Part shown: positions 16,201 to 44,250 of the stretch, piece by piece | How the letters are laid out: every line of letters begins with the position of its first letter | Position numbering within the stretch: position 1 is the stretch's first letter | Assembly (NCBI GenBank): GCA_028622995.1 | Contig: JAJQJQ010000071.1 | Span: 372,001 to 436,000 of the forward strand | Origin: Panagrolaimus kolymaensis | Taxonomy: Eukaryota; Nematoda; Chromadorea; Rhabditida; Panagrolaimidae | Direction of reading: 5' to 3' | DNA: 64,000 nt | The notes under the pieces: generated by a model | Told to the model about the DNA's origin: nothing | What the model saw: the letters and a program-made list of their open reading frames with translations, nothing else | The model's database searches: none | Translations under genes and position numbers: made by a program

Positions 16201-19200
16201 ATGATGATGAAAAGGAAAGATATATAATATTTTCTTCTTCTCTTTTTTATTTTTTCACTAAAAAGGAATATAATAAAAATATAAAAAAGGACCGCTCGAA
16301 AAAAGGCAAGAAGAAAGAAAGTCAAAAAGAAGGAACGTGAGCGAGTGAAAGTCAAAAAAAAAGTCAGTTAGTTAGAGATGGTCAGAACAACAAGAAGAAG
16401 CTATCATCTATCTATCTAGCTGTTGCTTGCTTGTTGTAAGGAGTTTCGAACAATATTTTTTTAAGGAAAAATGGAGATGGTGTTGGTTTTTATATTATTT
16501 TTTGAATGAATGTCCATCATCAATGTTCCCAAAAAAGCGATCTTTATTGACAGAAAAATCTTTAAGTTAGCATTTAAAAAAGGGTGGTTTAAATTATTAC
16601 TAAAAACAACGAAAAAAGCAAGGAAAAAGACAGTAACATTATATTTTCCAAAATATTGTAAAAAGTAAGTCACTAACTCGAGGAGAGTAAACAAATCATG
16701 ACAATAATTTTCAAAATTATGTTACTATTATTTTCTTTAAATACGCTTTAAGCAATTTTAGCAACAGAAAAAGTAGTTCGAAAAGGTATGTTACTTTACA
16801 AGGGAGACCTAATGACCACCATAAAAACTAAAATAATAAAAGTAATACAATTTTTAAATTTCAAATTTCTTCAAAAAAATAAGGGCAAAGAGAGAGAGAA
16901 ATAAATTTTAATGATTCACATACATTTTAAAAATAAAAAAAGCTTCAAGCCAAGGAAAAAAAAGAAGAGAAAATCACGCTCAATTGAGTCACAAAACTAA
17001 CGGACGACGAAAAATGTAAGGAAGAAAGAAAAAAAAGAGTGACCAAGACCTTTATTTTTATTTTTCAAACAAAAAAAAGAGAATGTTTTCCTTCCACCTT
17101 TTGCTCTTTCTTGCTTGCCTTTGCTTTCTTTCGTGCCTGACTGCAAACATTTATTTTCTCAATGCCCTTATAAAAAAACTACAACGAAAACAACGATGGT
17201 TATATTTTTTTTCTTTCGTTTGCCTTATTTTCTTTCTTCAAGGTCATCGGACTTGAGTCTCATTCTTCTTCTCCTCCGTCAAGGTGAGCTGGCCCAACCA
17301 TAAATAGCAAAGGACAGAAGATGAAAAATAAAAATAGGAAGAAAAAAAAGTGAGGGAAAAAAATAAAGTAAGTAAGTAAATGAATGAGTACACATACGCA
17401 AACAAAAAGGTGAAGGTTTGAGAGAGAGAGAAAAAATGGACTTCCATCAAAAAAAAAATAATGGACAAGAGAGAGAACAAACAGCTGAGTGAAAGAAATA
17501 GAAAATGGATTGGAATGGAATATTGAGACTAATTGCAAAAAATAACAAACACTTGCATTTGCAGTTGCTTTTTTTTTATTCGTTGCTGCCCTGAAGGATG
17601 GGAAGTCAAGTTGTGGTCAGTCGTCATCGTCACTAACACTCACTTAAAATAAAACTTGTTTGGGTTTTTTTCTAGCACTGATATTTGTGCAGAGAGATGG
17701 AAAGGAAAGCGATTTTTTAGTGAAAAAATATCCTTAAAAACATTTTTTTTTTCTTGCACTCTGAGATAAAATAAAAATGAAAATATCCTTATGGCTGTTA
17801 CTTTTTTTTTGTTTTTAAAAAGTCAGTCAATAAAGAAAATTATCGAAGCGAAAATAGTAAGTAAGTAGTTAGCGATGGTCAAAAAGTCAAAAAGCATTCG
17901 ATCAAAATTTTTTTTTCGATTTTCACAAAATTGCCTCTCTTAGAGCGGAAATCTTAATATCAATTAGTTATAAAAAAATGCTCTTCTAAAAATTTGAGCT
18001 CACAAATGTCTTCTTGCTAATTACTCCCAATTAACCCTTCACATGCGAAGCTTCATGAAATTCTAAACTTTCTTCCTTGCATCAAATTACTGTTATTTTC
18101 TATTAAAAAATCAAATCACAAATACGAGAATATGAATTTGAATGTGAACAGAAACAATTAATTTTTTTCAATCTCAAAAAAGTAATCCTTTTGTTCGAAA
18201 GAAAAAGGAAAAGATGATAGAAAAAAAGTCAGTAAAGGTTAAAGAAAAAAGAAAAATGGAAGAAAAAGAAGATTACTAAAAACGTAAAATCACTCCAGGA
18301 GGTCCAATTTCGTATGATCTGTGAGTAGTCACTTGACAGAGAGTCGGAGCAGAAACAGAAAGAATAATCATGACTTTCTGTTGTCGGCATAAATAAAATA
18401 TCAGGAATAAAAGGGATCAAAAACAGTGGTGGTGGAAATAGATTAACAAAATAGAAAGAAAAAAATGAGAACACAGTTACAAAGAAGAAGGATTGAAGAA
18501 TAAAATAAGATATATCGAGTAATGGCAGAGTGAATCATCAAATTTCGATGGTTAGGATTTTTTAATAAAGAAATAAAGAAGTTAATATAAAAAACGTAAC
18601 CAAAGAATATGTTTAGAGAAAAAAAAGAAAAATATTATCAAAACTTAAAAAAATTATGCACGCTGCAAAGAAGTTTTAAGTTTTTTTGTTTTTAATGTTT
18701 TTTCAAAAACCTGTAAATATTTGTTTAGTTACTCGCAGCGCAATCATTTTCAATCAAAGGCGGAGTACAAATGGCCAAACGCAACGTGCAATTTGTGGAT
18801 TTTTTAATTATTTTTTGATAGTTATCGCCATATTTAAAAATCTGGAATGGGTTTAGGAGAAAAGTGTTGAAAGGGCGTTTTTAAGTTAGGTAATTATCTA
18901 TCTTTTCGTACAAACGAATTTCAATTTCATAAAAAAACAAAAAAATGGTTCTGGACTAACTTTTTTGGTCCACATCTACTCCGCCATGATTACGCTGTGT
19001 GCTAGAAAAAAATATAAAAAAATTTGCCTCAGACGCTGAAGTTTTTGATCATAGACTTTTTTTGATACCTTTTAGGATTTACGCACAAAAGTATTCAGCA
19101 AAACCCCCAATATCTATCATCGGCGGGGATTCGAACCCAGCTCAAAGAGATCGCAAGAATCTCTTTTACCACTGAACCATGGATCAAACAAAATTTAACA

Positions 19201-22200
19201 TAAGAAAGTTTAAGGTATTAAAAAAGTATTTCAAAGAATTATTTTAGATACTATCATACTATCACTCTCAAAAATTCTAGTCAAAACCACAGCTTAAACT
19301 TTCTTAAATTTGTCAAATATTTATATTTTCTAAATTATTCAAAAAGTATCAAAAGTTTTTAAATTAAATTTGGAATTCTATGCAAATATTTTTTTATATC
19401 TCTCTAACCTTATTTGTCACTAACATATTTTTTTATACATTCACTCTAAAGCAACAACTACATCAGGTGTATCCATTCATTTCCAAGCGTATTTATATAT
19501 AAAAAATTACAAAAATAAAGAGTATCAAATTTAAGAAAGCTATTACATACATATATGGATTATAAAAAGTTTTAATTTTTTTATAAAAGGAAAAAAACAA
19601 GCAAAGGACTAAAAAGTTTTTAAGAAAAAAAGAAGAAAGAAATAAAAGTTTTTTTTGGTAATTTGAAACTTTCATAAAAATGGATGCAGAAAAAAAGAAA
19701 ATAAATTCTAAAAAGTAAAAATAGCTTTTTTTAATAAAAGTGAAAGAGATGTGGTAAAAAATTGATAGGGAATTGAAGAGGGCTTATAAATTTTTTTGGA
19801 GTCATGTAAAACTTTATTTAATATTTTAATAATCCAAATAAGTTCTCACTGCGAAAATTGCCTCTATACAAAAAATTAAAAATGTTAAAATTTACTAATT
19901 CTTAGAGTCTAAAATAATTTTCTATTTTCTTAAAAGCTAAATATTTTTGTTTAAAGCATGAATGGCTTTTTTCACACCTTTTTTTGAAAAAAAAACTATA
20001 ATTAGCGCATTTTTAACTCAAACACTTTTGTGGAATTATTTAAAGCACATTCACAAAAAAAGAAGAAGGTGTTGCTTGCTTGCAGATGCAGCTGCTTCAA
20101 TGACAACAAAAGCACAAGAAAAAGAAACAAAAGCAAAGAGTATTTATTCCCAAAACAAAGAACAAAAAAAAGAAAATGAGAGAGAGTCGAGTCAGTAAAA
20201 AAATTATTTTCAAAATGCCTGCGCAATTTTTCGAGGTTTGAGTTTAACAAAGGGAATTCATTGATTTTGGTTTCATTTCAGTTTGAACCTTTCGAGAGGA
20301 AAAAAATATCGGTAGATCAAAAAAATGCCGTTGAAGCCATAAATATTTTTAAACGGTTGTAAACCTTTCAAAAATGTTTTAAATGAAAACGAGAAAATCA
20401 GCAAGTAGGAGATAGTGAGTAAGAAGCTCAAGAAAAAAAAAAGGAAAAGTGAGTGGTGAATGACCGTTCTTTTTTCCCAAATAAAAAAATAATCAACCGC
20501 CGACTCAAAAGTGGGAGTTTGACGGTGTAAGCGAAGGTGTTGGTAGTGGTCGCAGGTTCGAAGGCTATAGTGTTGAAACAAGCATAAATGAAATGGGAAA
20601 GGCGAGACTAGTCAAGCGATGATGCATGCATGTTTTTGGTTGTTTTTGTAAAAAGCTCGCGATTTTTCTTCTTCACATTCTCCAACAACCAAAAAAAAAC
20701 ATGCAGAAAACGAACAACGAAAGCAAAAAGAAAGTGTCCCTTCCTTCACCTTTGCTTATTTCCTTTCTTTAAAGAAAAATAAATGTGAATCATGAATTTT
20801 TTCATGTTTTTTTTATAATCCTAAAATCTAAAAGCTTTAAAGCTTTTCCTTTCTCAATTTTTCAAACTTTTTTTTGAAGCTTTCATTTAAAAACAAAAAA
20901 CTATCAAATGATTTTTTTTATTGTAAAATAGTTGTTTATCGCCTTTAGGTGTCATAAAATAAAAAAGAAATAAAGAATGAAATCGTAGAATCGAACGAAA
21001 AACGATAAACGTCAAGGTCAGAAAACAAAACAATCTCTTAAGACTTTTAAAAAAATGATTCACAATTTCTTCTTCTTCTTCGATTTTACAATAATAAAAA
21101 TAAAAAAGTGTGTAAATACATGAAAGATTTTTTGATTTGATTTTGACACGGGAGAAAAATATGTAAATATGTATGTGTTTGAGAAGATTGAGATTGTAAA
21201 AGGAAACCTTTTATTATTATTTTTGTTTTTGTGAATGAATGTAAAAAAAGGTAAAAGAGAAATAAAATGAAGATTATTGCTACCGGAAATTTGAGAAATA
21301 TAAAAATTTATGGTTTAATAAAAAAAAATTTTATATGGCAGAAATTTGAGTGAGTCTTAGAATGAAAACTATTTTTGAGATAAAAACATTAAGAAATTAT
21401 CCAAAAATGTTTACTTCATTTTTTTAGCTATCTTGCATCAAATCCAAAAGTGAGGTCAAAGTCAAAACCCACAGAAAAAAAAACTATTGCATTTTTTTCT
21501 CTCCATTTTTTTAAAGGTAAATCACAAAAGCAAACATATATAGCCGACCCGTTAATTTTTTTTTTCACTCAAATAATGTTGATCCTCTACTCTCCTTTCT
21601 CTATGGTTTGAATTATAAAAATGCACAGGGAAAAATAAGAAGAAAAAAAATGTTTGAACAAGAGGACAAGAAAAATATATGAGGTGACCAACAACAACAG
21701 TCAGGTCAAACACTAAACAAAAGAAGAAGAAAAAAAGTCAAATAAAAAGTGAGAAGGAATTAGAATTAGAAAATCGTAGTTTTTTTTGGCAAAAAAAAAT
21801 ATACTAAAATACTAAGAAAATTTTCAATTGCATTCCAATGTTTATTAGTTATTTTGTGCCAAAGACAAAAAAAAATATTTTTCTCACAAGTTTATGTTTT
21901 CCGTTATTTTTTTTATTTTTATTTTAAGACATAAAGAAAAAAACCGGCACTTTTGCTTTCACCCTTTTGTGGACTGGACTTCTTCCAGCCAAAAAGAAAA
22001 AAAGAACTAGCATCTTTAAAAAAATGAAGGAGGCAAGCAAGAACAAAAACTTTCTTTTGGCGAAGACAAACGAGTCCAAAAAAATCTAACACGTCAAAAC
22101 AACGACGAGCATTTTTTTGTTAGCGCAAAAAATAAAAAGTTTTTTTCTTAACAAAAAAAAACTTAACATAGTGGTGCTTCTTCTTCGTCTTTAAGATGGA

Positions 22201-25200
22201 TGGTCCAAAGACAAGAGGAAGAAGAAGACGAAGACAACAAAAAAAACCTCTATACTTCTTGTTCTTTTTTTTGAGGATGGTGCCATCCGCCATTGCCTTC
22301 AACTATCCATCCATGCTTGTAGTTTTTTGAGTCTTGAGGCGAGAAGAAATAAATTGTCAACACTTGTTTTTTTTTATTTTTAGAGACCTGCGAGTAAAAA
22401 AAATATGAAAGAGAAAGGAATGAGTTAAAGTTAGTTTTTGAATGCTAGAAAAGATTATGCTTCTTTTTTTTACGAGAGTGGGGTTCTTGTTTATTTGGAC
22501 AATGGTCAAATAATACAAGTCCATAAAAATAAAATCAAAAGCAACAAAAAAGCGGCTTCCGTTGACGCGGGCTGCTTTCATTTAATCCAAAAGCTTTGAA
22601 AAAGTCTTTGCCACGGAATAAAAAAAAATGCATCGGCCAAAAAACTATTACCGAATTAAGTTTTCTTTTTTTTTTATTCCTCGTAAAAAAGTCAACGGCT
22701 TTTTTTTTGTTGCTAAAAGCAAAAAAAAGTTGCCAATTTTCGCACTTTTTCTTTTCGTTTTTTAAGAAAAGACAGAAGGCGAAGAAGAAAAAGAAAAGTT
22801 GAAAGACAAACGATTTTTTAAATGCCCAAGTCTAAGTATAGGAAGACTTCCACGTCGGCGTCCATTTTTATTTTTTTTTTTACATGAAATTTTTCTTTTA
22901 TTTTATAGCATAAAAAATGTCCGAGACTATAGTCATCCACTATTAAAAAGTGGCTACTATATAAAGATTAAGAATGGCTTCAAGGTAGAAAGTAAAAAAA
23001 GGACAACATAAAAGATGAATTGGTTGAATTAACTAATAATTTTCCAGCAAATTTAAGTAAATTTTGGGGCTAAAACTGCTCCAAAAAAACCTTTACAATT
23101 GAAAAAGAATAAAAAATTAGATCCAATCGTTCTTCCTCCAAAAAAAATTCTTTTTTCTTCCTATTTTTTTAATTTTCAAAAAGGCTAGTTTCATAAAAAG
23201 AAAAAAATTCAATCAATTTTTTTTCTAACTCTTCCAACAATTTTCAAGGATAGAATACAAAAACTAAACAAAACAACGAAAAACGAGGAAAGGTCGTTTG
23301 AAGAATCGAGCAGCAACAATAAAACATGAAAAAAAAAATAAAAGAAATTTTCCTTCGTTCAGTATCCGAAAAAAAAATTTCAATCAAAAAAATCAAAAAG
23401 TGGTCATTTCGAGGTTCGATAGTTTTCAATTTTCCTCCTGTCGCGCGCTCATCGACTATGTAGCGAAAAAAAAGAGAAAAAAAGAGAGATATCAATTTTT
23501 TGTTTGCGGTCATTTTTATCCTTCATTCAACGAAGAAAAAAAACCATTGAATCCATTTTTTTTTTCTCTCCTTGATTCAATCGGTTCCGGTCATTGCAAA
23601 GCTGCTGCTTTTTTTTCTTTTCATTTTTTCCTCAGTTTCAATTTTTTTTTGTAAAATAAAAAAATAATTTTCAAGAGCTTTTTTCCTCCTTCTTTTTTTT
23701 CCATTGTTTTTTTTCTTTTGATTTAAAAGAATATGGAGAAAAATTTTAAGTGGTTTTTAAAAAAATAAAAAATGCTTTTTTATTTTTAGGAGAAGCTTAA
23801 AAAAATTTTCTTTCTGCTTACGGCTTTTAGCTATTTATTTTTACTATAACGAAAACATTAGTTTTTGAAGTAAAAAGTGTACAGAAAAAAAGTGGTGGCA
23901 TAATTAAGAAAGCTTTGGTAACAAAAAAATATATTGAAATTTTTTGCTTTGAAACTAGAAAAGTTTTCAAATTTTTAAATCCCAAAAATCTCAACGATTC
24001 TTCTCCATTTAAATTTTTCTTAAATTTTTAGTCATCTCATTCTCAAAGTTTCCAAGAAGAAAAAAAATATTCATAATTTATGCTAATTTTCCAGCAACCA
24101 TAAAAGACTGGATTTTTTACTCTCTCTCTATTTTTCCGTCAAAGTTGAAAATCAACTACTTCCCACGCTTTTTAAAATAAATTTGTATTTATGTAACCAC
24201 CAACAAAAAAAAGCATTACCATTTTTCATCAAAGGAAGAAAAAAATTGAAAAAAGAAAAATATAAAGTGTTTCCCAGGGAGATATAATATATCCCTCTTT
24301 TTTTAGTTTTATTCCATTTGAAAAAGAAATATTCAGGAAAAAAGCTACCAACGAAAAAGTAAGTGCTACTGGAAGCTTCAAAAGGAAGAGGAAGAAGCAG
24401 GAGGCTAAAAAAATGAAGGAAGACTTGTTTTTTTTTTGGTAATACAAAATAATGACCACCTGGAAAGATGCTTTTGGTTACTCTTTGCTTTTATATAAGT
24501 AAATTGTTTTTTTTATTGGCTTTTCCTAGATGATTTTTTTTTGTTGTCGGTCAAACCCACAAAAAATCCCATTAAGCCTCAAAGGTGGAAAAGGAAGGTG
24601 ACTGGCACGAAAGTAATAAAGGTCTAAAAAATTGCTGTGGAAAAATGTGAAATTTTAATGAAGTCAAAAAAATAAGTGTGGCAGCAGCGGCTATTGTTGT
24701 TGAACACAAAATTGAGAAAGAATAAGGTCAAGATTTGGAGTAAATTCCTCTTCCTCGTTAAATTAAATGAAGTTTTTTATGAGAAATTAAAAGCAAAGCA
24801 TTATGCTGCAATTAAAAAAAAGAAGGTGTTAATGATGAAACGAGTGTCCGCCTGAGAAATGATGCCGTTGAAAGGTACAAAGACAATAAAAAAATTTGAG
24901 AAACATATAAATCAGCAATAAATTTGGAACAATTAATGTCAGTAAAAGCCATAAAACTTTTTTTGATTTTTATGGTCGAGAAATAAGACGGTCAGCTTTA
25001 GTTTTGTGCCGCAACGAAATTTATTAAACTTAATCATTTTTAACTTCAAAATTTCTTAACCAAAATGAAAAAACTTCCTCGGTGTATTTAAAATTATAAT
25101 AAAAAAAGTATAGTTAAATGGCTTTAGTTAAAAATTCAGGTAAACAAAATTCGAAGTTCGAACTCAAAGAATTTTGTAAATTTTTCATTCCAAAGCAGTC

Positions 25201-28200
25201 ATCAAAGAAAACTTTCCAAACCCTAGATGGCATAAATTAAAAACAAAAATCTTATTTTCGTTCCCATTCTGTCGCCCTCAAGTTTATGTATGCTTATTAG
25301 CTAAATAAGCATCCTTCGAATTTTCCCTTTAAGCTTTCATTCATTTTTCTTATATATTTACTCCTTCCAAACTCACTAACTAAAAATTTAGCAAGGAAGC
25401 AAACGTTCCGGAATCTCTCTCGCTCCTCTTCTCTCATTTTTTATTTGGTCCAAATAAATTTATGAAAACGCAGCAGCAGCAGCAAAAGTGACCAATGTCC
25501 ACTCCCTTCTTCTTGCATTTTTGCTTGCTGCTTCCGGTTGCACTCTCATTTTTTCTTTTCTAAGTTGCGCACTTTGGGAAGAAAGTCAAAATTCAAGACG
25601 ACTTTTTATTTTTCTCAAAAAGGTCGTTGTTCGTTCGTCGCTAAAGGGCAGGGCACTTGACGACAAACAACAACAAACATTTGATATTTGTAACTAAAAA
25701 CAAAATTTGGTATGTCTTTTTTGCTTTTCAAATAAAAAAATTTGTAACAATTTTTGATTTGGTTTTTGGTAGTGAAACAACTGTCTTCTTTGAACTCTCG
25801 AGAAGTAAGTTGATGATGATGAGCAAATTGATGGAAGGAAGGAAAAAGGCGTTAAATGACCATCATCACAACAGCCAACAACAGCAGGGGCGCAAAATGC
25901 AAAAAAAAAGTGTGATGATGCTCCTCTCGATGAGGAACTGTTCATGCCAATCAAGCTTGATGGTCAATTGCGTAATCTTGAGGGTGGTGGAAGAAGAAAT
26001 GTGTCATTCATTCATTCAGGAAAATAAAAAATGAAGTGCTATTAACTAATGATTTAAGACAAATGACAAGGCTAATGGAAGAGGGTAATGAATGTGAAAA
26101 TGTTGTAAAAAAAATTTGTGCAATAAAAAAAAGAAAAAAGTGTAAAATGACCTAAGCATTTTTGTCTTAAAAATAAATGTAATGAAAATTTAGTTTAAAA
26201 TTAACTAAAATTGAAACCAAATATAAAAAAGGTATAAGGAACAAAGGTCTTGAAGGCCGATTTACTACCACCAAATTCCAAGAAAAAAATGCTTAAGCTA
26301 CTTTTCTATTTTTTTAAGCCAATAAATACTCTAAAAAAACTATCTCCAACAAATTATTTTTATTTTCTTACCCATAAATTCATAGGCTCATGCATACTTG
26401 TACTTGTCATAAGTATGTATTACCTCCTTCAAGCTATGCAGCAAAAAAAAGTGAATTAGTTTTATTACTTTTCAAAAAAAAAATATAATAAAAATAGATG
26501 AAAGTGAATTGGAGACTTGGACAAAAGAAAGAAAGGAGAGCAGCAGCAACAAGTATATTTTATTAAGATCAAAACAAGCTTGCTTTTGCTTTGCTGCGCA
26601 TAAGTGGATTAAAAGGCAAAAAAAAAGAAATACGAAAGAAAAAAAAGCATGTGTTAGTTTTTTTTGTTCTTACATTCCATTACACTTTTTGGAAATCGGA
26701 AAAAGAGAGAGAGAGTTTAGGGGAAATTGATCATCATAAAAATTATTATTAATGTCAGGAAAAAAAGAATGAATTATTTGATGAAAGAAAAATATCCAAA
26801 AAAAAATTGCGCTAATAAATCAAGCTTTTGCCAAATATCAAATGCCGACGGGAAATAAAAGAAAGAAAGAAAAGAAACAATCATATCTTTTATATTTTTT
26901 TGAAAGGCGCGTTCGTCGATGACAACAAAAGAATAAAACAATAATAATAATAAAGATTATGACAAGAATGGATGGATGGATGTCTAGAAGACGACAAAAA
27001 GAAACACAGCTGTTTAGAAGAAAAAAAGAACGGAAATATTTTTAGAACTTGCAAGATTTGGCTTTTTTTAATTAAGAAATTAAATGATAATATTTTTTTG
27101 TAATGGTTACAAAATTCCTTAAAAAAGTTTTATTTTTTATGGAAATTTTTCTCTCGTGAAGTTGCTGCTACGATTATGGATTGGCAAAAAAATAAATAAG
27201 CGTGTCAAAAAGCAAGCGCAGCCCTTATGACACCTGCTTGTGCTTGTGTTTATGAGAAAAAGAGAGGCAAAACTTTTTTTGGCATCATTTTTCGGCACTC
27301 ATACTACCAACAACAAAAAAATTGAGAAAGAAAAGTGTTTATTTTTATCGTTCATTGCACATACCCACATTTTTGAATTTTTGCATTTTTCTTTCCTGAA
27401 AAAATAGATTCAGAAGAAAGGAAAAAAGGAAGAAAAAAGTTTTTAAAAATAAAAGCAAGCAGCCACAATAGCAAAAGCAATGGCTACTACTACCACCTCG
27501 CGCCACTTATATAATAAAATATGCTATAAGTGGTTGGGATGGTGGTAGCCAATGCATGAATCTAATATTCATATTCCACCAAGCTTCTCAAGTATCATTT
27601 TTTTCTTTTCCTGTCGTCTTTAATTTTTTTTTCTTTAAAAAGGATATAATCAGGGCTGTCAAATCGCATCGCAAAATGTCGACGCAATCGCAGCAGCGAC
27701 GCATTTTTCATTTTCGCAGCTGCGATGCGATGCGAAAAATTCAAAAAAAATGAAATCGCTGCTGCGACTTCAGCGATGTTGTCGCAGTTTGCAAATGCGA
27801 CGCTTTTTTTACGTGTCTTTTTTGAAATGCGATCGCAGCTGCGATGCGATTGAAAGCGTCGCATATGAAATGCGATGAAAATCGCGCAAGCTGCTGCGAA
27901 TCGCTGAAGTCGCAGTACACTTTTTCTTGCGTCGCATGCGAAAAATAGTGATTTGACAGCCCTGGATATAATATGGCTTTGATCGAAAAAGATGAAGCTT
28001 GTTTTGATATAACTAGTTTGATTTTAATCTCGAAAAATGAATTAATAAAAAAATGGATTAAATACTTTTAAAAATAGCGATTTCGAGAAGCAACTAACAA
28101 AATAGCTGGTAGGGAGAAAAAAAGGCTATCGATGCCGATTTATAAAATTTTTAAATAGATTTTTTCTTTGCCGATGAAAAGAATTTTTTTTGTAAAAAAA

Positions 28201-34200: not shown

Positions 34201-37200
34201 GATCAAAAACAAAATGGGGCGATGGCCTTAATTCTCCTGTAACCGAATCAATAACAAATGGCTTCCGTGATTCACTTCTTGCATAATAAAGAGAATAAAT
34301 TATTTCTCCATTCGTTGAAGCATCATCATCCGTGGCTTTAACTTGAATAATTACGGGTGCTTCACCATGTCGATATTGACCTTCCTCAATTTTAGCTTTT
34401 TGACTATAACTTGAACATTCAGGAAATTCAGGTTTATTATTATTTACATCTGCAATTCCTATTCGAACTGTGGCAGTTTGAGTATGTTGAAGAGGGTTTT
34501 CTTCATCACAACACGATCCATCATCCTTGGCCACGACAGTCAAATTATATGGACTTCCATAATTTAGTAATTCCATAGGTGAAACATTTTCTTTGAGTCT
34601 GATTAAGCCCGTATCTTTATCAATTTCAAACAACTCTGTTTCACTTGTTTCAAAACCATATTCATCTAAAAATCCATAGGAAACTTGATCTCGATCTGGA
34701 TCAATTGCTTGTATTTGAAGCACGGGTGTTCCACCTTGAGCATCTTCAGCGATGGCAGTGGAATATTCTCGGGTTGGAACAAACATGGGTGGTTCATCAT
34801 TCGTGTTTTCAGTTCGAATATGAACGATCGCTGAACTTCGTTGTCGAGGCATGCCTCGATCTTCCGCAGTTACATTAAATCGATAAATAAAAAATCTTTC
34901 ACGATTTTGATCTGCATTTAATCTTCGACGAGCACTAATTTCACCGGAATCCGAAACAGAAAAATCTGGATGATCGACGGTGTAAACAATTCGAGAATTT
35001 TCAGAAGAATCTTTGTCAATGGCGCGAACTAAAAAAAATAACATATGTATTTTTATTAAATTTAAAATTGTAAGGTCCTTCTATAAAAAAAAATACCTTG
35101 CAAAATAGATTTTCCAATAGCAATATTTTCTTTTGTGGTTGCCGTGTAAAGAGGTTGAATAAATGTTGGAATATTATCATTAACATCTTCAATTTCAAAT
35201 TCCACGGTCACTGAATTCTCTTTTCCATCTTCTTTAACGACCGCTAAAAAAAGTTTTATGTTTGTTGAATTTTTTATAAGCAAATAAATTTTTTTTTAGC
35301 AAACCTCGAAGTTTAAAAATTTTTGGTATTGCTGGATCATCAAAATCCAAAGCTCTTTTGAGAGTTACTAAACCACTATTTTCGTCAATTGTAAAATATG
35401 GACTTTCATCATCTGTGAGTTCATTGAGAAGATAAAATTTTTGTGGAGCTTTAATTCGCCGCTCATCAATGGCTCGAAAAGTATGAGTTTCAATAAGTAA
35501 AAGACTATTTCCAACATTGGAATCTTCACGAATTTTTCGAGAATATTTTGAATTTAAAAATTGTGGAGGTCTATCACCCGCAAGTAATTCCAATACTGCA
35601 ATTTCACTTTGTTGTTGTTTTTGTTGTTTGAATGTGGTTGAATTATTATTATTATTTATATTTTTGGGTGTAGCATCTCGAGCTTGAACGTACAATTTAT
35701 AAATGGAACCTGGGGAATATTTTCTTTGAGCTGTTCGAACTGCTCCACTTTTAGCATCGATGGTAAAAGATCCAGAAGCTGAAAAAATTATTATTTTTTA
35801 TTGTAAAATTTAAATAATATTGTTCCAGGATTCTTTACACAAAATTTTATTCATTCTGTTTTTATTATTTTATGCAATTTTGCATACTTTGAATTAAGGA
35901 ATTTTTTATTTTTTTCAAGTTTTTTATCTCCCTTTTTTTGCTATCGTCTTTTTCGGTATAATCCAAAGAAAAAAGCTGCATTTTTTTCTTCTCCAAAAAA
36001 GGTTACTTGAGGCACAAAAAAGAATATATATTTTAGAAAAAAAGTAACACTATAAATTAGATTAAAAGCAGCTGCAAAAATAAAAAATAAAAATTGAGGA
36101 CATTGAGAATAGTATTTTCTGTATTTTTGTTTCTCAGCTTTTTTTAAAAGGATTTGAAGGGAAAAAATGAAGTAACTAACTAACACAAAAATTGGATTAG
36201 AGTATGGTCAGTGACTTTTTATTTTGTTTTGTTTATCCAAAAACAAAAATAAAAAAAATTAGTCGCGTTTGTTTAAAACAAAAAAATGGAGGACTTACGT
36301 TCAGAATTAATTAAGCGATATTCAATTTGTCCATTACCATCACCATTTTCATCTCGAGCAACAAATTGATATACTTGATATCCAAGTGGACGTTCATATG
36401 GTACTACAGCAAGAAAGGGTTTGGGTGAATTAAGGAATCTAGGAGGTTCATCAACATCCATAACTTCGAGATGGATAGTTTGAGAGCGTCCTGAAAGTTG
36501 GAAAAAGTTTAATCAGGTTTTTGAGAAGTTATCGATTATTTGGCTATTAACGATTTGGTTTTTGAAAGTTTTATGTATATAAAAATAAGCAATTTTTAAA
36601 TTGATGATAGTAATTCAAAAGTGACAATATTTCAAAAAATTAGGTTGCTATCATAAAGAGATTGAATATTTTTTAAAAGCTAATTTCTTTGTCGTTTTTA
36701 TTTTTATTTTTTGACGCTTCACTTTTTTTTGCAACATATTTTTCATAAATTTTGCATATTTTCAAAACCCCTGAATTCATTCAAACTTTATTTTACAACA
36801 AACTTCTTTCATTTTCTTTTCTTTCTTACATTTTTTTATTTAAAAACTTTAATTTACTTTTTGCTTTTTTAGTTTCTTTCTTTAAAAATGTTTCTTATTA
36901 GTTTGTTTCTGTTTCTTTCTTTCTTTTTTAAATTGAAACATTTTCAGGAAGTCCTCGACGACAACTTCCGGCGTTCCTTTGAATGAAAGAGTTTTGATAG
37001 ATTGCATGTGAATGAGCATGCATGCATGTTTCTTTTGTACATCAATTACTTTTTTTTGCTTGCCTTTCATCATTTTTTTATTTCTTTAAAAATTATTTTT
37101 AAAATTGTCCTTTTTCGCTAAACTGCGCAAGAAAAAAAAAGAATATAGAAAAGTCCCTTCATTTTTGAGTACTTAAAACTCAAGCTTCACCCGAAAAAAA

Positions 37201-40200
37201 GCTACAGTCAAAAAAAGTGTGCCATTTTTAGTTTCTAGTCGTTTGAAGGATGATTACAGGTGACCAAATCGGAAGAAAAAAGAAAGACAGCATTGTTGTT
37301 TGTTTTTTTTTTTTTTGCTTTTCTTGACCGTTTTGTCGTCGTCGTCGGATTTTTCTAATCCAATTATAGCCCTTTTTTGCCGATTTTTATTTTCAGTGAA
37401 AAGCAAGCACTAGGAACTAAATTAACAGCCGTAAAGCTGTACTTACTATTCACTCACTACCTTAGCAACAATTTGTATGGCACCCTGGTGTGAGACAAGA
37501 GAAAGGCAACTAAAAAAATTGGATGCTTAAAAAGGAAAGTAAAAAAATGAAGAAGAAAAAAATTGACCACCACGAAATAACCGTTTTTGTATTGTTCATT
37601 TTTCTTTTTTAACAATATAAAAAACGCTAACCACCTGGAAAATAGAGAAAATGATTGGTCATTGTAGAAGTCGCTGTTGGCGTCCACCATTTTTTTTGTC
37701 GATGCAATTTAGAATGAAAAAAAAAAATTATTTGAATAGAAAAAAGAAAAGTCAATCGGTCATATTCATTTTACATTCCGCTATTATGCAATCTCAGATT
37801 TTTTTCTCGAGATTTTGAAATATCCCTATTCAACCAAAAAAAAGCAGGCCAAAAGTAACAAACGATCCCCATGAAATAAAAAAACTATTTTCTTTACCCA
37901 AAAAAAAAACGGTTTCATTGTTTTCGCATTTTTTTACCATTCAATTGTTGTTAATTAAATTTTTGCAAAGCAACTGTCATCCCCGAAAAATCCCTCGATA
38001 TCTCATCATCATGAATTACTCACTCTCATTCATTCATCTTCATTCACCCAACAATATTGAAAATAGAAAAAAGCAGCAGCTTCAAGTCACTCAATTAAGC
38101 CCTTGTGTTCCAATTTACTTAAGTATTTTGTTAATAACACATTTTTTAATTTACTCATTTATTTATGCACAAATAGTAAGAAAAAAAATTATAAGCGATT
38201 GTTTTTGGAAACTCAAGAATTTATAATTTTGTTTGTCAGCCAAAAAATATTTTAACAAAAAAATTGCAAAAACTTTCGACCTTGGCAGGATTCGAACCTA
38301 CAATCTTCTGCTCCGTAGGCAGACGCGTTATCCATTGCGCCACAAGGCCACGCGAATTCCAACTGGTTCTATTGAACTGACATAATGCTTCCTATTGCTA
38401 TGAATTGGAGAGTTAGAAAAACAACGAAGTTGCTTGCTGCTGTTGCAATCTTTAAGTATGCATGTGCGCTTTCCTCTTTGCTTTCTGGCCCTAGCGTATC
38501 ATTCTTTTTTTTTGCAGTTGGTCCCTCAGTCTTTTTTTCCTTTCTTTTGGAAGCAAAAAAAAAAATGAATGGTCAATAAAGCGATCGAGCAAAAAACATA
38601 ATTAGACTGTTCCTTCCTACTCTTTTTTTGGTTTTCAAGAAACACAACAAAAAAAAAACAAAAGCTCATGTTCCGACAAAAAAAGAAGTGCGATAAGTAA
38701 AAAAAAGAAAGAAGATTCATCTGATTTGAGAAGATTGTTGTTGCTGTAAAAATTGTCACCTCTGTTTTTTATTTATTTTTTTTTTGCGGTTCACATGAAA
38801 AACTAAACTAATGCCGCTTTTGAAGTTGAGAGGAAAATGAAAAAATCGGAAAAGGAGTTATCTTTCATGCACGCGTCGTCGCTTGTTGTCAAAGATTGTT
38901 TGCAATTAAAAAAAAAAAAAAAAGATAGAAAGAAAGAGATTGCGCAAGAGAGCGTAAAAATAGAGATTGTAAAATTGTTTGCGGTCACAACAACGTTTAT
39001 GGCCCAGGAGAAAAAAAAAACATAGTTGACCAAAGAAGTTGTAAAATTTAGTCAAGCAAAAATAATAGTTTATGAACAAAATTGAGCAATTTGAATAATT
39101 TTGTGTTTAGAAGAAAAAAAGCTTGCAAATCTTAGACAAAATCTTTTTTATTATGGAAGAGAGTAATTTAAAATTAACAATATTTTGGTACATCTGCTTA
39201 CTATCGTTTATTGAAAGTAACGAATAATTGACGATGATTTTAAATATGGAATTATTATCATTTTTGAAATTTAAGAATTTTAGCTTGTTTTTGCTATTCC
39301 CTGAGCATCGAGAAATGGCAAATAATTTAATTGAGTCTTTTTTTTACTTGCATCTTCAAAATTAAAATTTTACGTTTCCCTTCATTTTTTATATATTTTT
39401 TCTTTTCTCTCGTTTTTTTTTCTTCTTCAAAATAAAATGACCAAAGGGTTGGCACGCAAAAAAAAAGTAGTATGAAGCCAAGAGACTTGCTTATTTCTAG
39501 ACTAATATTAATTAAATGACTCGAAGCTGCTGCTTTTTTTCTATTTCTGTTTTTATTTCATCATGAGTTTCCATTTTTTTTTTGTTGCAAAAATGACCAA
39601 ACAAATAAAGCCCTGTGTCTTCAACAGGCGAAAATGAATTCACAATTGCTTTATTTCATAAATTTAATTTAATTCAATTTTCTTTGTGTAGAAAGAAAGA
39701 AACAATGAATAAGAAAATAGTTCTCACAATAATGCTTAATGATAGTAATTGAAAATTGAAAAGTATTGTTTCAAAATGGTTACTTTCACAAAGAAAGATA
39801 CATAGAAACATAAAAAAGTGATAAAAAAATTATTTTTTGTTAATAAACTTATTTTTCCCCTCGAAATAACATTAAAAAAGATGCATGCCAAAAATACATA
39901 AAATTATTTTATTATGCATTACTAATAATCATCCGTCAATTTTTTTACGTCTCTTTTTTTCTAAAAATATCCCTTTTTTGACAAGTTCATGAACGACAAA
40001 AAAAAAAGAAAGTTTCATGTTTTTCTTTAATTTTTTTTTAGTCATTCATCCGTTTTTAAACTTCTTTCTTCGTTCGCTTTGAAGCAAATTTGCGTATTCA
40101 CTTGAACGCAAAAAGAAGATGGATTTAATCAAAAAACGAGCAACGACAGATTTAGTTTTGAGATAATTTGTGTGGAGACATGAAAAATGTTTTTAAGGAT

Positions 40201-43200
40201 GTGTTTAAAAAAAAGAAGTAAATTTGATTCAATAATGCGCGAAAAAATGGAAAAGGCTTAAGGCCGTAATCGGCTCATCAAAAAGAGAACGGCGGCAACT
40301 GCAATGCCATAGATAACTGCGCAAGAGCCCTTTAGGCATAATTTCAGAAGAGTGAAAAATAAAAGAAAATGAGCATTACAAACATTGATGCATGAAATTT
40401 GAGAGAAAATTTTAAACCATTTAAATATTTAATTTGTGCAGAAAAAAATGAAGATGGAAATAAATTTTTTGAAAAAAATTGAAAGAAAGTAACTCAATCT
40501 TGCAAAATATTGCTTAAATATCATTACTATCTCAATTTGATAGTATTAAAAATAACCAAAATATCGTCAAAAAATAATTACTATCTCAATGTGATAGTAA
40601 GCAAAGTTTGCAAATTATTGTTTTAAAATTTTTACTTTCAATGAAAGTAATCAAAATTCTCAAAATATTGTCATTTTTAACTTACTATTAAAGTCACCAG
40701 TAATTGGAATATTAACGTGAATTTCATTTTGCTTTTCATAATTTAAGCTTTTGATTAATTCGATTGAACCATTATTAAAAACTTTCAAATATTCTGAAGT
40801 TAAAGGTGCACCTTCAATACTTTCATCGGTAAAAAGTGCAATTTGTTGATTTAAAAATCCATTCGGGTGATCTTCTTTTAAAGCAATAAAAACATCACTC
40901 GCTCGATCTCTTTTAGCTGTTCGAGTTTTTCTTGATGATGATGATTTAAATAAAGCTGGAGAATCACTGCCGCCAACTATGACTTTAATTTTAGCTTTAC
41001 TTTCCTAAAAAAAATACTTTTATTTTAAGAACCAAAAAAAAATTAGGGATTCTAGGTACCTGTTCTAAAGCATCAACAGCAATAACAAAAAATTCATATA
41101 TTCCATTTTTTAATGTCGTTGTAGCAAATATATCTCCTGCAATTGGAGCAATATCAAATATACTTGATTCTGGATCAATTCGATAAAAAGCTGTTCCACG
41201 TGAGGCTCTGGAAAATATGTTTGTTATTAAAAGTTTATAGAATTTTGTGATTTTTACATTATTTTTGATTCAACTAAATTTTTAATAAATTTTAACTGAT
41301 TTTCAAGCGTCAGTCTAACTTCTTTAAAAATTTGTATTCTTTGGTTACTGTCATTTTTCATGTAACAAATCGATTACTCTCTTTTTTGTCTTTGATCTTC
41401 CTTCTTTTTTTCTTTTAGGTTGCAATTTTTTTTTGTTTTGTTTTTGATCCGATTACTACTTTCCCTTTTTTTTCTTTTCAATTTAATATCCGCTTCCTCC
41501 ATCATTTTTGTGTTTTTGTATTTATCCCTTTCTTTCTTCTTCCAACGAAAAAGATGACGACAAGAAAAAGCTTTAAAAAAAATCCAAGCAATAGCGGCGA
41601 CGATGACCTCGGCCAGTTTTGTTGAAAAAAATCGGGAAAAAACTTAAAAAGCTTTCTTTTTTTTTGCGTAAACAAACAAAACAAAAAAAAGAAGGAAGAA
41701 ACTGGAGAAAAAAGGGTCAAAGAAAAAAAGAAGCGAAAATAAGACAATAATAATAACTCATTTGTGAGGATTAGTTATTTTTGTAAGAAAAAAAACGGAA
41801 GCGATATATATGTATAATTGAAAAGGATTACATGCTACACAGATCGTTTTTTTTAGAAAAAAAATTATGGATATAAATAAACTCACTTTGCTTTAACTCT
41901 CAATAAAGTTAAATGAGCTTGAACACTTTTAATTTCAATAACATAAACATTCGATTCAAAAATAGGTGGCGCCAAAGAAGCACTTCGAATATCCACAATT
42001 AATTTTGTTATTGCCACTCGCTTTTGTTGTTGTCGACGATCAAAAGCTCCAATATAAATTTCTTTTTTGGTTTCATATTTTTTTGGCCGCCTTGAAAGAT
42101 AAATTTTTGCAAAAGATCCATGAAGATATTCTTTGGCATTAACAAAAGTAATAAAATCATTATCATTCGTCGTTACAGGGCCAAAATAAATTTCAGTGGA
42201 TGTTTCATTTTTAAGTGAAATTCTTCCGGGAAGTATTAATTCCGTTTCTGGAGCAGCTGTGAAATCAATGGAAGTGGTGTAAATTGGATGGAGAAATTGA
42301 GGCGCGATTCTGAAGCGACAAAAAATTTTAAACCGTAAAAAGACACATTTTTAGCGTAAAACTTACTCATTTTGAATTTCAGCAAATATAGTTAAAACCC
42401 TTTCATATGGTTTTCGTTCTGCAAGAATATTCAATAAAAATTTTTGACCCTTTAAAACTCCAAGTGGCGATGCCGAAAGAATTGTATGGTTTTCAACTTT
42501 AAAAAATACAGAATGTTCTGATTTTTGGATTGATAAATTTTCATGTTTATTACACACTCCATCGAATGCTAAATCAGCCAGCAACCAACCAATAGGGGCA
42601 TCAAATCGGATTGGATAAACCTGGAAAGTAATAAAAATTTTGAATTAATTGCTTAAATTTGTTTACTCTCATTGTCATTTTTTACATTTTTTTTATTTTT
42701 CACACTTTTTTTGTTTCATTTGCTGCTTTTTTGACCCTTTTTTGAAGAAGAAAAAAATCATCAATCGGGATCGAAGAAGCCCAAGCTACTAGCTCCCATA
42801 TAAGTGTAGTTTTGCAAGATGGTCATCGCCACTTACTCACTTCAAAAAAGCAAGGATCTATCTTCTTTTTTTTCTAGTTAGAATAGGAAATAAACTCTGG
42901 GAATGAATGAATGTCTGTTCTATAGAGAAAAAAACTAAACAAAACCCATTATCCTCTTGAAAATTTGCGCATCCGAGGAAACAAATAAATAAATTTAAAA
43001 AAATATAAAACAAAAGAATCGAAGAAGTAAGTGCAAGAAAATAAAAAATCAATCATTCATTACTCAATAATCTTTTCCGGATGATTGAATTTTAAAAGTG
43101 CCCATATTTTTAATATAAAAAAAAATAAATTACTCACCTTTGCAGCCAATGAAAAATTTAAATAAATAAAAATACAATAAAAAATTAATCTAATGCATGA

Positions 43201-43209
43201 TGATTTCAT
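5531..43209 (-). CDS. hmr-1: Classical N-type cadherin (long isoform), HMR-1/CadN family
   Basis: Calcium-dependent adhesion receptor that links through catenins to actin. Nineteen coding exons in phase: 43138-43209, 42367-42620, 41887-42309, 41060-41207, 40686-41004, 36299-36490, 35305-35778, 35097-35243, 33073-35028, 32697-32840, 31655-32636, 31417-31525, 13219-13448, 12864-13004, 9118-9649, 7902-8618, 7068-7814, 5612-7012, 5531-5554; 9,012 nt, 3,003 residues. Residues 1-24 are a signal peptide ([15 protein letters not shown]). Cadherin repeats with DxNDN linkers ([33 protein letters not shown]) run to about residue 2040. A nematode/arthropod-type membrane-proximal region, Cys-rich EGF modules and two laminin-G domains follow. 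The membrane helix is at about 2854-2878. The tail (~124 residues) has GGGEAD (p120 site) and [18 protein letters not shown] (beta-catenin site). The symbol is by homology and layout; the family assignment is firm. The last exon is tiny and ends in WNRGFER-stop, unlike the longer W-G-x-R-F-x-x-L-A ending usual in the family. Confidence 0.93.
9650..12863 (-). other. Cadherin intron between exons 14 and 15, no gene seen
   Basis: 3.2 kb of AT-rich sequence dense in A/T runs, with consensus splice ends (donor GTAAGT at 12863, acceptor TTTTTAG at 9650). Its open frames are low in complexity. I see no coding or RNA gene in it. Confidence 0.6.
16628..16730. repeat. Two tandem 49-bp mirrored modules
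   Basis: Unit 16682-16730 is GGAGAGTAA - 31 bp - TTACTATTA. Unit 16628-16676 starts AGACAGTAA, carries a CCAAAATATTG centre, and has a degraded right half. The step between units is 54 bp, as in the array at 40.5 kb. Confidence 0.6.
18525..19190 (-). mobile_element. tRNA-headed SINE, copy 1 (interrupted)
   Basis: Minus-strand element. Its 5' head (about 19117-19188) is tRNA-like: ATGGTTCAGTGGTAAAAGAG gives an A box and GGGTTCGAATCC a B box, with an AGAGAT/ATCTCT stem between them. The body reads through TTTAGGATTTACGCAC-like sequence (plus strand) to a 3' end at CAGAGTGAATCATCAAAT. The same head, body and end recur at 29901-30305. This copy carries an extra ~270 bp (18732-19005). Without a proper acceptor stem it is not a functional tRNA gene. 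Confidence 0.75.
18732..19005. repeat. Extra segment with inverted ends inside SINE copy 1
   Basis: Absent from the other SINE copy. Near its left end reads AGCGCAATCAT...GGCGGAGTA. Its right end, on the opposite strand, reads AGCGTAATCATGGCGGAGTA. The mirrored ends suggest a small DNA transposon nested in the SINE, though no target duplication is clear. Confidence 0.4.
27477..27555. other. Imperfect hairpin of about 79 nt
   Basis: Left arm GCAATGGCTAC...CCACTTATA pairs with right arm TATAAGTGG...GTAGCCAATGC around a short AT loop, with an internal mismatch region. Length and shape resemble a pre-miRNA, but a small foldback element is equally possible. It lies about 100 bp from the hAT element. 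Confidence 0.4.
27651..27964. mobile_element. Non-autonomous hAT element (MITE), 314 bp
   Basis: Perfect 15-bp terminal inverted repeats CAGGGCTGTCAAATC / GATTTGACAGCCCTG. An exact 8-bp target duplication GATATAAT sits at 27643-27650 and 27965-27972. An 8-bp duplication with CAGGG-type ends is diagnostic of the hAT superfamily. The interior codes for nothing and is built of GCGATGCGA-type strings in both orientations, far richer in GC than its surroundings. It sits in the giant cadherin intron. The perfect ends suggest a young insertion. Confidence 0.93.
29006..29054. repeat. 49-bp mirrored module
   Basis: TGACAGTAA at 29006-29014 and its mirror TTACTATCA at 29046-29054, 40 bp apart start to start. 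In the giant cadherin intron. Confidence 0.65.
29901..30305 (-). mobile_element. tRNA-headed SINE, copy 2
   Basis: Same family as 18525-19190 and same strand. The tRNA-like head is at 30234-30305 (ATGGCTCAGTGGTAAAAGAG, then GGGTTCGAATCC). The body shares a long near-identical stretch with copy 1 (TTTGCCTCAGACGCTAAAG on the plus strand), and the 3' end is at CAGAGTGAACCATCAAAT. It lacks the inner segment of copy 1. Confidence 0.75.
30429..30477. repeat. 49-bp mirrored module
   Basis: TGACAGTAT at 30429-30437 and TTACTATCA at 30469-30477, with GAATATTGT at the centre. Lies just downstream of SINE copy 2. Confidence 0.65.
31576..31624. repeat. 49-bp mirrored module (degenerate)
   Basis: TCGTAGTAA at 31576-31584 and TTACTGTCT at 31616-31624, inside the short intron between cadherin exons 11 and 12. 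Spacing is exact, half-sites imperfect. Confidence 0.4.
36605..36653. repeat. 49-bp mirrored module
   Basis: TGATAGTAA at 36605-36613 and TTGCTATCA at 36645-36653, with GACAATATTTC at the centre. Near the acceptor end of intron 5. Confidence 0.65.
38277..38349 (-). tRNA. tRNA-Arg(ACG)
   Basis: A 73-nt cloverleaf reads cleanly on the minus strand. The acceptor stem GGCCTTG pairs with CAAGGTC (one G-U), followed by a G discriminator. The D arm is GCG/CGC with loop AATGGATAA. The anticodon stem TCTGC/GCAGA encloses the loop CTACGGA with anticodon ACG. The T arm GTAGG/CCTGC encloses TTCGAAT. A and B boxes are intact and a T5 run follows 3' of the gene, as RNA polymerase III needs. It is intact and intron-less, nested on the same strand in cadherin intron 5. 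Confidence 0.93.
39158..39260. repeat. Two tandem 49-bp mirrored modules
   Basis: Unit 39158-39206 is AGAGAGTAA - 31 bp - TTACTATCG with AACAATATTTTGG at the centre. Unit 39212-39260 is TGAAAGTAA - 31 bp - TTATTATCA. The step is 54 bp. Confidence 0.65.
39740..39788. repeat. 49-bp mirrored module
   Basis: TGATAGTAA at 39740-39748 and TTACTTTCA at 39780-39788, with AAGTATTGTTTC at the centre. Confidence 0.65.
40262..40345 (-). other. GC-rich island in intron 5 encoding a membrane-helix-like peptide
   Basis: About 80 bp near half G+C inside AT-rich intron. In the cadherin sense it has an open frame reading [19 protein letters not shown], then RLRP-stop, like a membrane helix with a very short tail. 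A CCTAAAG acceptor-like site precedes it, but the phase does not match exon 5. Could be a rare alternative terminal exon, a microprotein fragment, a regulatory island or chance. Confidence 0.2.
40484..40690. repeat. Array of four 49-bp mirrored modules
   Basis: Units 40484-40532, 40538-40586, 40592-40640 and 40642-40690. Each is a GTAA-ending half (AGAAAGTAA, TGATAGTAT, TGATAGTAA, TGAAAGTAA), 31 bp, then a TTACT half (TTACTATCT, TTACTATCT, TTACTTTCA, TTACTATTA). Steps are 54, 54 and 50 bp. Centres repeat CAAAATATTG or close variants. The last half-site spans the exon 5 donor at 40685/40686. Confidence 0.8.
42623..42671. repeat. 49-bp mirrored module beside a splice acceptor
   Basis: GGAAAGTAA at 42623-42631 and TTACTCTCA at 42663-42671. 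Read in the cadherin direction, the first half forms the TTACTTTCC just before the AG acceptor of exon 2. Confidence 0.5.
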
Positions 43210-43484
43210 TTTAAATAAGAAAATAAATTAATATTTTTTACTCGTAGTTTTTTTCATTTAAAAAATTTTGTTTTAAAAAAAACTTAAATTTCGATGTCGA
43301 TGATGATAATATTTGTAAGTGATTATGGAATGTTTTTGAATTTACCAAATATAAATGATGCTATTATTACATGAGGCAAGAATGAAAATTAAATGTTTGA
43401 GAAATTATAGCTGAAATTTAAAAAAAGGATGATAGGAAAAAAATTATATTCAAAGTTTTATAAATTTTCTCACGAAACTATCAA

Positions 43485-43533
43485 TGATAGTAAGCAAAAA
43501 TGAACGATAATAAGGCAAATAGTGTTACTGGTA
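43485..43533. repeat. 49-bp mirrored module upstream of the cadherin start
   Basis: TGATAGTAA at 43485-43493 and TTACTGGTA at 43525-43533. An extra AAACTATCA half lies just before it at 43475-43483. About 280 bp upstream of the ATG. Confidence 0.55.
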
Positions 43534-44201
43534 ATTCCGTGTGTCGAGAATTATTTTTTGGGAAAGGCTTCGATGGCAATTAGAAAAAAAACTTTAAAAT
43601 CATAAAAACCGCGCACATAAAAAAATAAATGAATGGATCAATCATTAAAAAACCTCAAAAGAGAAAAAAAATTTTTACATAGAAAAAAAAGCAAAGCAGA
43701 AAAGGGCATGGTCATCTGAAAAAAAAAGAAGAAGAAAAAACGGCGGCAGAAATATAAGGGACGGGTGTAAAATTAAAAAAAAATATGGCGAGAAAAAGAT
43801 TTTACAACAACGCAGTGAAAATACAAAACAATGAAAAACAACAAAAGAAGCAAGTTGTTGGAATAAAAAAACCGAAACAAATTTCATCCCTCCTTTTTTT
43901 TGGTTTGACCTAAACCGCAACCAATATAAATGAAAAAGCAATTTTTTTTTCATCTAAAAATGGGTGTTTTGTTTTTTTTTTGGTAGGTTTTTGAATTAGT
44001 TTTTTTGAGAGAAGCAACAACAAAAATGCAACCTCGTTGTCCACGAACGGGTGTTAATGAAATTAGAAATTAAGGGTGGAGTTTGGTTGAAGCTCAAATT
44101 AAATAAAGTAAAAAGTTTATTTTTTTAAACAAAAAATGGAACAATACCAGTTTAAAAATTTTTTAGTGTTAATAAAGAAATTGGCGGTTTCAAATGGAAA
44201 A

Positions 44202-44250
44202 TGACAGTTATAAAATTATGCAAGAATTCTTACAGATTTTGTTACTATCA
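44202..44250. repeat. 49-bp mirrored module upstream of the cadherin start
   Basis: TGACAGTTA at 44202-44210 and TTACTATCA at 44242-44250. About 1 kb upstream of the cadherin ATG. Confidence 0.6.

Follow-up and report, generated by a model that had tools for sequence, protein, structure and literature searches.

Short DNA elements of about 49 bp lie in the introns and the 5' flank of hmr-1, a nematode cadherin gene, within the 64-kb stretch of DNA analysed here (C70:372001-436000, referred to as the window), and many more copies are dispersed through the genome to which it belongs, which comprises 265.8 Mb in 807 contigs. Each element is made of two mirrored half-sites, GANAGTAA ... TTACTNTC, whose starts are 40 bp apart, that is, around four helical turns; the core that separates them, AAAWTATTGTY, is off centre. 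From its sequence, the element is read with slightly better than even confidence as a long, oriented and bipartite protein-binding DNA site that would mark chromosome domains.

The window was scanned with TGAYAGTAA-N31-TTACTRTCA, allowing up to three mismatches and taking 100 dinucleotide shuffles as the null, and 16 fixed-length matches were obtained against a shuffle mean of 0.08 and a largest shuffled value of 2. Fifteen of them are sites already listed in a preliminary description of this DNA, which had proposed about sixteen copies of a mirrored module; the other one, at 10029 (three mismatches), has a chance-like score. All the sixteen sites of that description do exist: fifteen are exactly 49 bp long, and the one at 16628, missed at fixed length, is a degenerate copy read as 51 bp that was recovered by a gapped profile at 16629-16674 with 11.0 bits. 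This profile adds nothing else, and ten simulated windows top out at 7.6 bits. When the candidates are scored with their own matrix the distribution is two-peaked, with the 15 elements at 27-44 bits (18-41 bits if each copy is left out in turn), followed by 10029 with 11.5 bits and then by 6.3 bits; the maximum in 20 simulated windows averages 8.0 and goes up to 16.9 bits. The comparison of the 40-bp spacing with its neighbours, which the preliminary description had advised, gives a sharp spike in the window: 16 pairs (10029 included, up to three mismatches) versus 0.29 on average for the remaining spacings between 10 and 200. The 16 elements together span 27.6 kb of the 64 kb, which has a probability of 3.5e-5 under uniform placement.

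The consensus of the 15 copies, each taken in its best orientation, is close to TGATAGTAAcwmAATTTTnnAAAwTATTGTyaaaawTTnnTTACTnTCA. Positions 2, 3, 5-9, 41-45, 47 and 48 are nearly fixed in these copies, and position 4 and its mirror, position 46, are near-free. Because the core is off centre the element has a direction; judged by the core, the window copies in this one gene divide into seven of one orientation and eight of the opposite one. The orientation of the 15 copies was chosen without a null of its own and is borne out by the genome lists, TATTG standing exactly at the core place, in one orientation, in 71 of the 146 perfect 49-bp pairs of the genome. Besides, when 30 listed 49-bp copies from other contigs are scored with an interior matrix built from the window, 28 exceed the 95% level of window 31-mers; the 30 include two homeologous pairs, and the background consists of plain 31-mers not matched for A+T.

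At the scale of the genome, perfect half-sites separated by 16-46 bp were found at 235 places, and at none with the reversed control or with a scrambled dyad. Exactly 31 bp separate the half-sites in 146 of these 235, where about 8 would be expected if the pairs were evenly spread over the 31 lengths. The claim that the spacing is exactly 40 stands for the mode and not as a rule, since 38, 39, 41, 42 and other values occur genome-wide; the first 50 of the 235 comprise 30 at 40, 11 at 39 or 41, 5 at 38 or 42 and 4 at still other spacings. No peak at 40 appears in viral contigs, where 3 of 120 listed half-site pairs (at least 120 being present) have this spacing. An oriented pattern with TATTG in place and up to two mismatches finds 1,011 places, against 0 for its control. 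Because this pattern catches just 6 of 15 window copies, the family would number very roughly 2,500 members, homeologous copies included, on a recovery rate taken from one locus. The module had been described as confined to the cadherin locus, which is correct inside the window and is contradicted at genome scale by the 235 perfect pairs and the 1,011 oriented places.

The tolerance of single positions was studied by changing one arm of the dyad with the spacing fixed, homeologous and duplicate contigs being counted in all four cases and the controls giving 0. A change of position 4 to C yields 58 places and to A 74, whereas a change of position 6 from G to A yields 17 and that of position 5 from A to G a single one. 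T to C at position 4 and A to G at position 5 are equivalent transitions, yet they yield 58 places and 1 place, respectively. Such a pattern is that of a motif with one base left unread, and it could also arise from a repeat whose source copies varied at position 4.

The elements cluster by megabase region, which has been formally shown on contig C1 (12.9 Mb). With no more than one mismatch this contig has 21 places, of which 13 fall between 7.80 and 9.20 Mb, 7 between 11.19 and 11.95 Mb and 1 at 0.14 Mb, and a stretch of 7.66 Mb is empty (analytic bound 1.4e-7). Four complete lists, which hold 220 places, have none on C8-C11, C15-C17, C20, C22, C25, C30 and C33, although other lists do show half-site pairs on C8, C10 and C30. 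No element was detected in 240 kb sampled as 24 stretches of 10 kb at the starts of contigs and at round coordinates, where the best score was 8.4 bits; two of the stretches from contig starts are largely satellite. Three elements, beside another coding frame, lie in 8 kb selected around two known places of a C1 cluster. As a separate observation, bases 1-5816 of C1 and 1-10000 of C2 are tandem arrays with units of 137 and 138 bp, respectively, of different sequence, and no telomere-type short repeat was listed in these first bases of both contigs.

A dimeric DNA-binding protein would fit the combination of half-sites mirrored at a distance of four turns, a core between them, occurrence in both orientations, a single unread base in each half-site and dispersed clusters. 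Related to this, the bound site for a symmetric factor seems to be the best-fitting of the offers made in the preliminary description, in view of the constrained half-sites, the near-free position 4, the near-fixed spacing and the presence of both orientations in one gene. It can be proposed that a dimeric chromosomal protein would hold the two half-sites from a single face of the helix, and that a DNA-bending partner would perhaps sit at the core. The core, RACAATA on the reverse strand, may be likened to HMG-box sites, and TGACAG to TALE homeodomain sites. The clustering in domains points to a role at the chromosome level: the clusters may mark or organise chromosome domains, in a holocentromere, in pairing or in another chromatin function, and the introns of hmr-1 would simply fall in one such domain, giving room for sites.

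A measure of constraint comes from homeologous copies of the locus. A stretch of 707 amino acids of hmr-1 has two more copies in the genome, on C72 and C28, with 98% identity, and three copies together with a low G+C content suggest a polyploid genome, tentatively that of a root-knot nematode (Meloidogyne). Fourteen of the 16 window elements were compared with both copies (28 comparisons), the two at 16.6 kb (16628 and 16682) falling outside the comparison; 39158 and 39212 against C28 were left out of the count, the alignment being broken there by an insert. Changed sites amount to 20 of 351 in the half-site core (5.7%), 79 of 772 in the interior (10.2%) and 744 of 7588 in the flanks (9.8%), with p = 0.009 for core versus flank, a pooled value that is optimistic because both comparisons share the window copy. 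The half-site core therefore changes more slowly than its surroundings, to a modest degree and at one locus. The interior had previously been considered free of sequence constraint; it does change at the rate of the flanks, and the weak oriented consensus described above is the part which that claim had missed. If 39158 and 39212 are kept, the C28 figures become 19 of 183 (10.4%) for core, 54 of 401 (13.5%) for interior and 533 of 4099 (13.0%) for flank. The unit lost on C28 still contributes a few aligned core letters to the homeolog count. When, in addition to 39158 and 39212 against C28, the two weakest elements (31576 and 43485) are removed, the counts are 11 of 295, 66 of 649 and 588 of 6228, respectively, a post hoc choice that is not relied on, and an earlier alignment of the whole region with C28 alone, ending inside element 44202, had given 8 of 134, 26 of 293 and 208 of 1835. 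The 14 elements keep their positions in both homeologs, apart from one 54-bp tandem unit that C28 lacks, and no precise absence of 49 bp (an empty site) was found in the 28 comparisons. C28 also carries an insert of approximately 460 bp, at about 3476-3935 of its stretch L145, which is absent from the window and C72 copies; it is MITE-like (miniature inverted-repeat transposable element), its inverted ends begin with CCCAG and it lies inside the half-site of 39158.

Several of these results weigh against a protein-binding site. The constraint between homeologs is modest, comes from one locus and depends on comparisons that share the window copy, and taken homeolog by homeolog the difference between core and flank gives p = 0.02 for C72 and p = 0.22, which is not significant, for C28. 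The interior is as fast-changing as the flanks despite its consensus. Lengths drift as well, since 15 of 25 homeolog readings are 49 bp, one of the 10 deviant ones being distorted by the array loss, and single sites look dispensable because C28 has lost a tandem unit and has an element split by an insert. Finally, near-identical tandem units of 53-54 bp on C19 show an amplification of the kind seen in repeats.

The main rival explanation is a very short non-autonomous mobile element, or a dispersed minisatellite, of which the elements would be relics: a unit of around 49 bp, with inverted ends of 9 bp, would have spread long ago, in part through tandem duplication, and would now be decaying without function. 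This is regarded as possible, although clearly on the unlikely side. The family is dispersed in both orientations, it accumulates regionally and its constraint between homeologs is modest, all of which would be expected from such relics, and the constancy of the half-sites is in part a matter of ascertainment, because the copies are found by them. Tandem arrangement is frequent too. Direct half-site pairs number 107, against 12 in the control, and among the 100 listed of these 107 the period is 49-55 in 82 (55 being the upper limit of the pattern); eight of the 100 belong to C19:3566160-3566594, where eight near-identical element units of 53-54 bp in a row form a young minisatellite. Everted pairs number 24 against 4 in the control, 21 of the 24 within 7 bp. 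On the other hand, position 4 is near-free in both arms and its neighbours are not, and the interiors of tandem neighbours in the window, whose starts are separated by 54 bp in four cases and by 50 bp in one, are no closer (0.48-0.58) than those of any pair (mean 0.52). No target-site duplication was seen by eye beside the solitary window copies; the near-identical listed copies outside tandem arrays look, also by eye, like homeologs, and the compared elements keep their places in both homeologs, bar the loss of one tandem unit. MITEs are usually far longer than 49 bp. The element resembles them in being dispersed and in having inverted ends and a near-fixed length (mirrored ends of 9 bp; one spacing shared by 146 of 235 pairs), and differs from them in that neither a target-site duplication, judged by eye, nor an empty site was noticed and in that its ends do not covary. 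Apart from this family, a different direct arrangement of half-sites with a shared interior was observed at C8:2305027, C8:2309236 and C46:1432665, which is perhaps another small family.

According to the excerpt of PMC9673304, the Meloidogyne holocentromere consists of divergent short tandem repeats with a conserved 19-bp box and is bound by the centromeric histone, and this is the nearest published system, with divergent units carrying a short conserved motif, uneven domains and, perhaps, short arrays and the host genus in common. That the present elements are part of it is improbable. The commonest junction of abutting units, TTACTATCA-N-TGATAGTAA, is 19 bp long and occurs in 6 of the 24 everted pairs, but this agreement in length may be coincidental. 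Moreover, 8 of the 16 window copies stand alone, as 49-bp dyads that combine two half-sites with a core, instead of the array units outlined in that excerpt; the contigs C9, C11 and C15-C17 have no place in the four complete lists, which would be odd unless the holocentromere were very uneven; and Meloidogyne as the host genus is itself inferred. Satellites of this genus also carry a single 17-bp motif like the CENP-B box, compared with the human box YTTCGTTGGAARCGGGA in the sections cited (PMC9673304, PMC3694981); a short conserved motif within divergent repeats is common to both cases, and no such G+C-rich core is seen in the 49-bp element. In C. elegans, as summarised in part of PMC9071541, pairing centres are defined by 12-base motifs that are enriched at one terminal segment and bound by the HIM-8/ZIM zinc-finger proteins. 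Both are short motifs enriched over chromosome regions, theirs being read by proteins, whereas the elements described here are 49-bp dyads with a near-fixed spacing of 40 bp and form two clusters on C1 (7.8-9.2 and 11.2-12.0 of 12.9 Mb), a contig whose ends are not known as chromosome ends. The same portion of PMC9071541 refers to DNA elimination in Oscheius, where a palindromic motif marks DNA breaks with telomere addition; that motif, too, is short, palindromic and from a nematode, whereas the present element has over a thousand dispersed copies. No published element with the present layout was found in the literature searched, searches with literal sequences included, the 19-bp box of Meloidogyne not being among the sequences compared.

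A homotypic enhancer cluster for the long isoform of hmr-1, that is, regulatory sites local to the gene, is very improbable. It would explain why 16 of the 16 window copies are in the introns and 5' flank of this gene (P = 6.5e-5 for their 27.6-kb span if they were placed uniformly in noncoding DNA, the exons being approximated from open frames), but hundreds of copies lie elsewhere, those of C1 are clustered by megabases and three occur in 8 kb of that contig beside another coding frame, so this idea was largely refuted by the genome search. Least probable of all, with hardly any chance, is a hairpin of RNA or DNA, the structured element of the preliminary description: its mirrored ends make folding likely, which accounts for the 5 of 15 copies that fold at z below -2 (29006, 39740, 40484, 40538, 44202), and it is not supported, since changes in one arm are not matched in the other (positions 4/46 pair in 2 of 15 copies versus 5.3 expected; the whole stem is 80.7% paired versus 81.9% when shuffled), 10 of 15 copies stay at z -2 or above, two of these folding worse than the shuffle mean, the self-complementarity of the interior (0.37) is lower than its complementarity to other copies (0.46), one gene carries both orientations, and Rfam at its gathering threshold reports a tRNA alone in the window.

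The features of the window are collected in Table 1. The host gene was recognised by the domains of its product (EGF_Hmr-1, cadherin repeats, laminin G and a cadherin cytoplasmic tail, from Pfam), and its tail matches the tail of C. elegans HMR-1 in PDB. Open frames suggest a start of the short form near 13.5 kb and exons of the long form from about 31.4 to 43.2 kb. The half-sites resemble GTAAG and TTTCAG, and an interpretation as mini-introns was dropped because the copies other than 42623 and 40642, two that touch likely splice sites, do not have the required terminal AG. A possible further decayed unit, TGATAGGAA ... AAACTATCA, of 54 bp, is located at 43430-43483, just before element 43485, and is below the thresholds used. 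Other sequences of the hmr-1 introns are a tRNA gene at 38277-38349 (-), with 61 bits in Rfam, and a dispersed repeat of the large intron, with copies at 19007-19213 and 30124-30330 that are 86% and 93% alike in the two blocks listed.

Table 1. Elements of the 49-bp family and their host gene in the window (own-matrix scores in bits; splice sites and exons inferred from open frames)
Feature	Position	Strand	Remarks
Degenerate copy, about 51 bp	16628..16678	+	2-bp insertion left of core, weak right half-site; starts 54 bp before next copy
49-bp element	16682..16730	-	40.4 bits
49-bp element, perfect TGAYAGTAA/TTACTRTCA	29006..29054	-	44.3 bits; present in both homeologs
49-bp element	30429..30477	+	Present in both homeologs
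49-bp element, weak	31576..31624	-	27.5 bits; starts about 30 bp inside an hmr-1 intron (inferred donor)
49-bp element	36605..36653	-	Right half-site better in both homeologs
49-bp element, tandem pair member 1	39158..39206	-	C28 homeolog broken by insert of about 460 bp
49-bp element, tandem pair member 2	39212..39260	-	Period 54
49-bp element	39740..39788	+	Identical across all three homeologs
49-bp element, tandem 1/4	40484..40532	+	
49-bp element, tandem 2/4	40538..40586	+	C28 homeolog lacks one 54-bp unit here
49-bp element, tandem 3/4	40592..40640	+	
49-bp element, tandem 4/4	40642..40690	+	Right half-site overlaps likely minus-strand GTAAGT donor of hmr-1
49-bp element	42623..42671	+	Left end adjoins AG, likely minus-strand 3' splice site of hmr-1
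49-bp element	43485..43533	-	Upstream of presumed first exon, hmr-1 long form
49-bp element	44202..44250	-	Upstream of presumed first exon, hmr-1 long form
Host gene hmr-1, nematode cadherin	5600..43230	-	Extent and exons rough

The siting of domains on holocentric nematode chromosomes is poorly understood. The most far-reaching form of the protein-binding reading, unlikely as it seems from the sequences at hand, would be an undescribed code for chromosome domains in an animal, in which thousands of 49-bp dyads, each spanned by a protein over four helical turns, would define megabase domains that serve a holocentromere, the recognition of homologs or domain chromatin. If this were true and the host belonged to Meloidogyne, such a code would operate in a group without canonical telomere repeats, many species of which reproduce without meiosis. 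The rule is sharp, with a near-fixed spacing and both free and fixed positions, which makes it open to searches of any assembly and to tests by pull-down or ChIP (chromatin immunoprecipitation). If the element were merely an old repeat, it would still stand out as a dispersed family that is strikingly short and has kept its ends well, and whose position-specific decay can be measured across homeologs.

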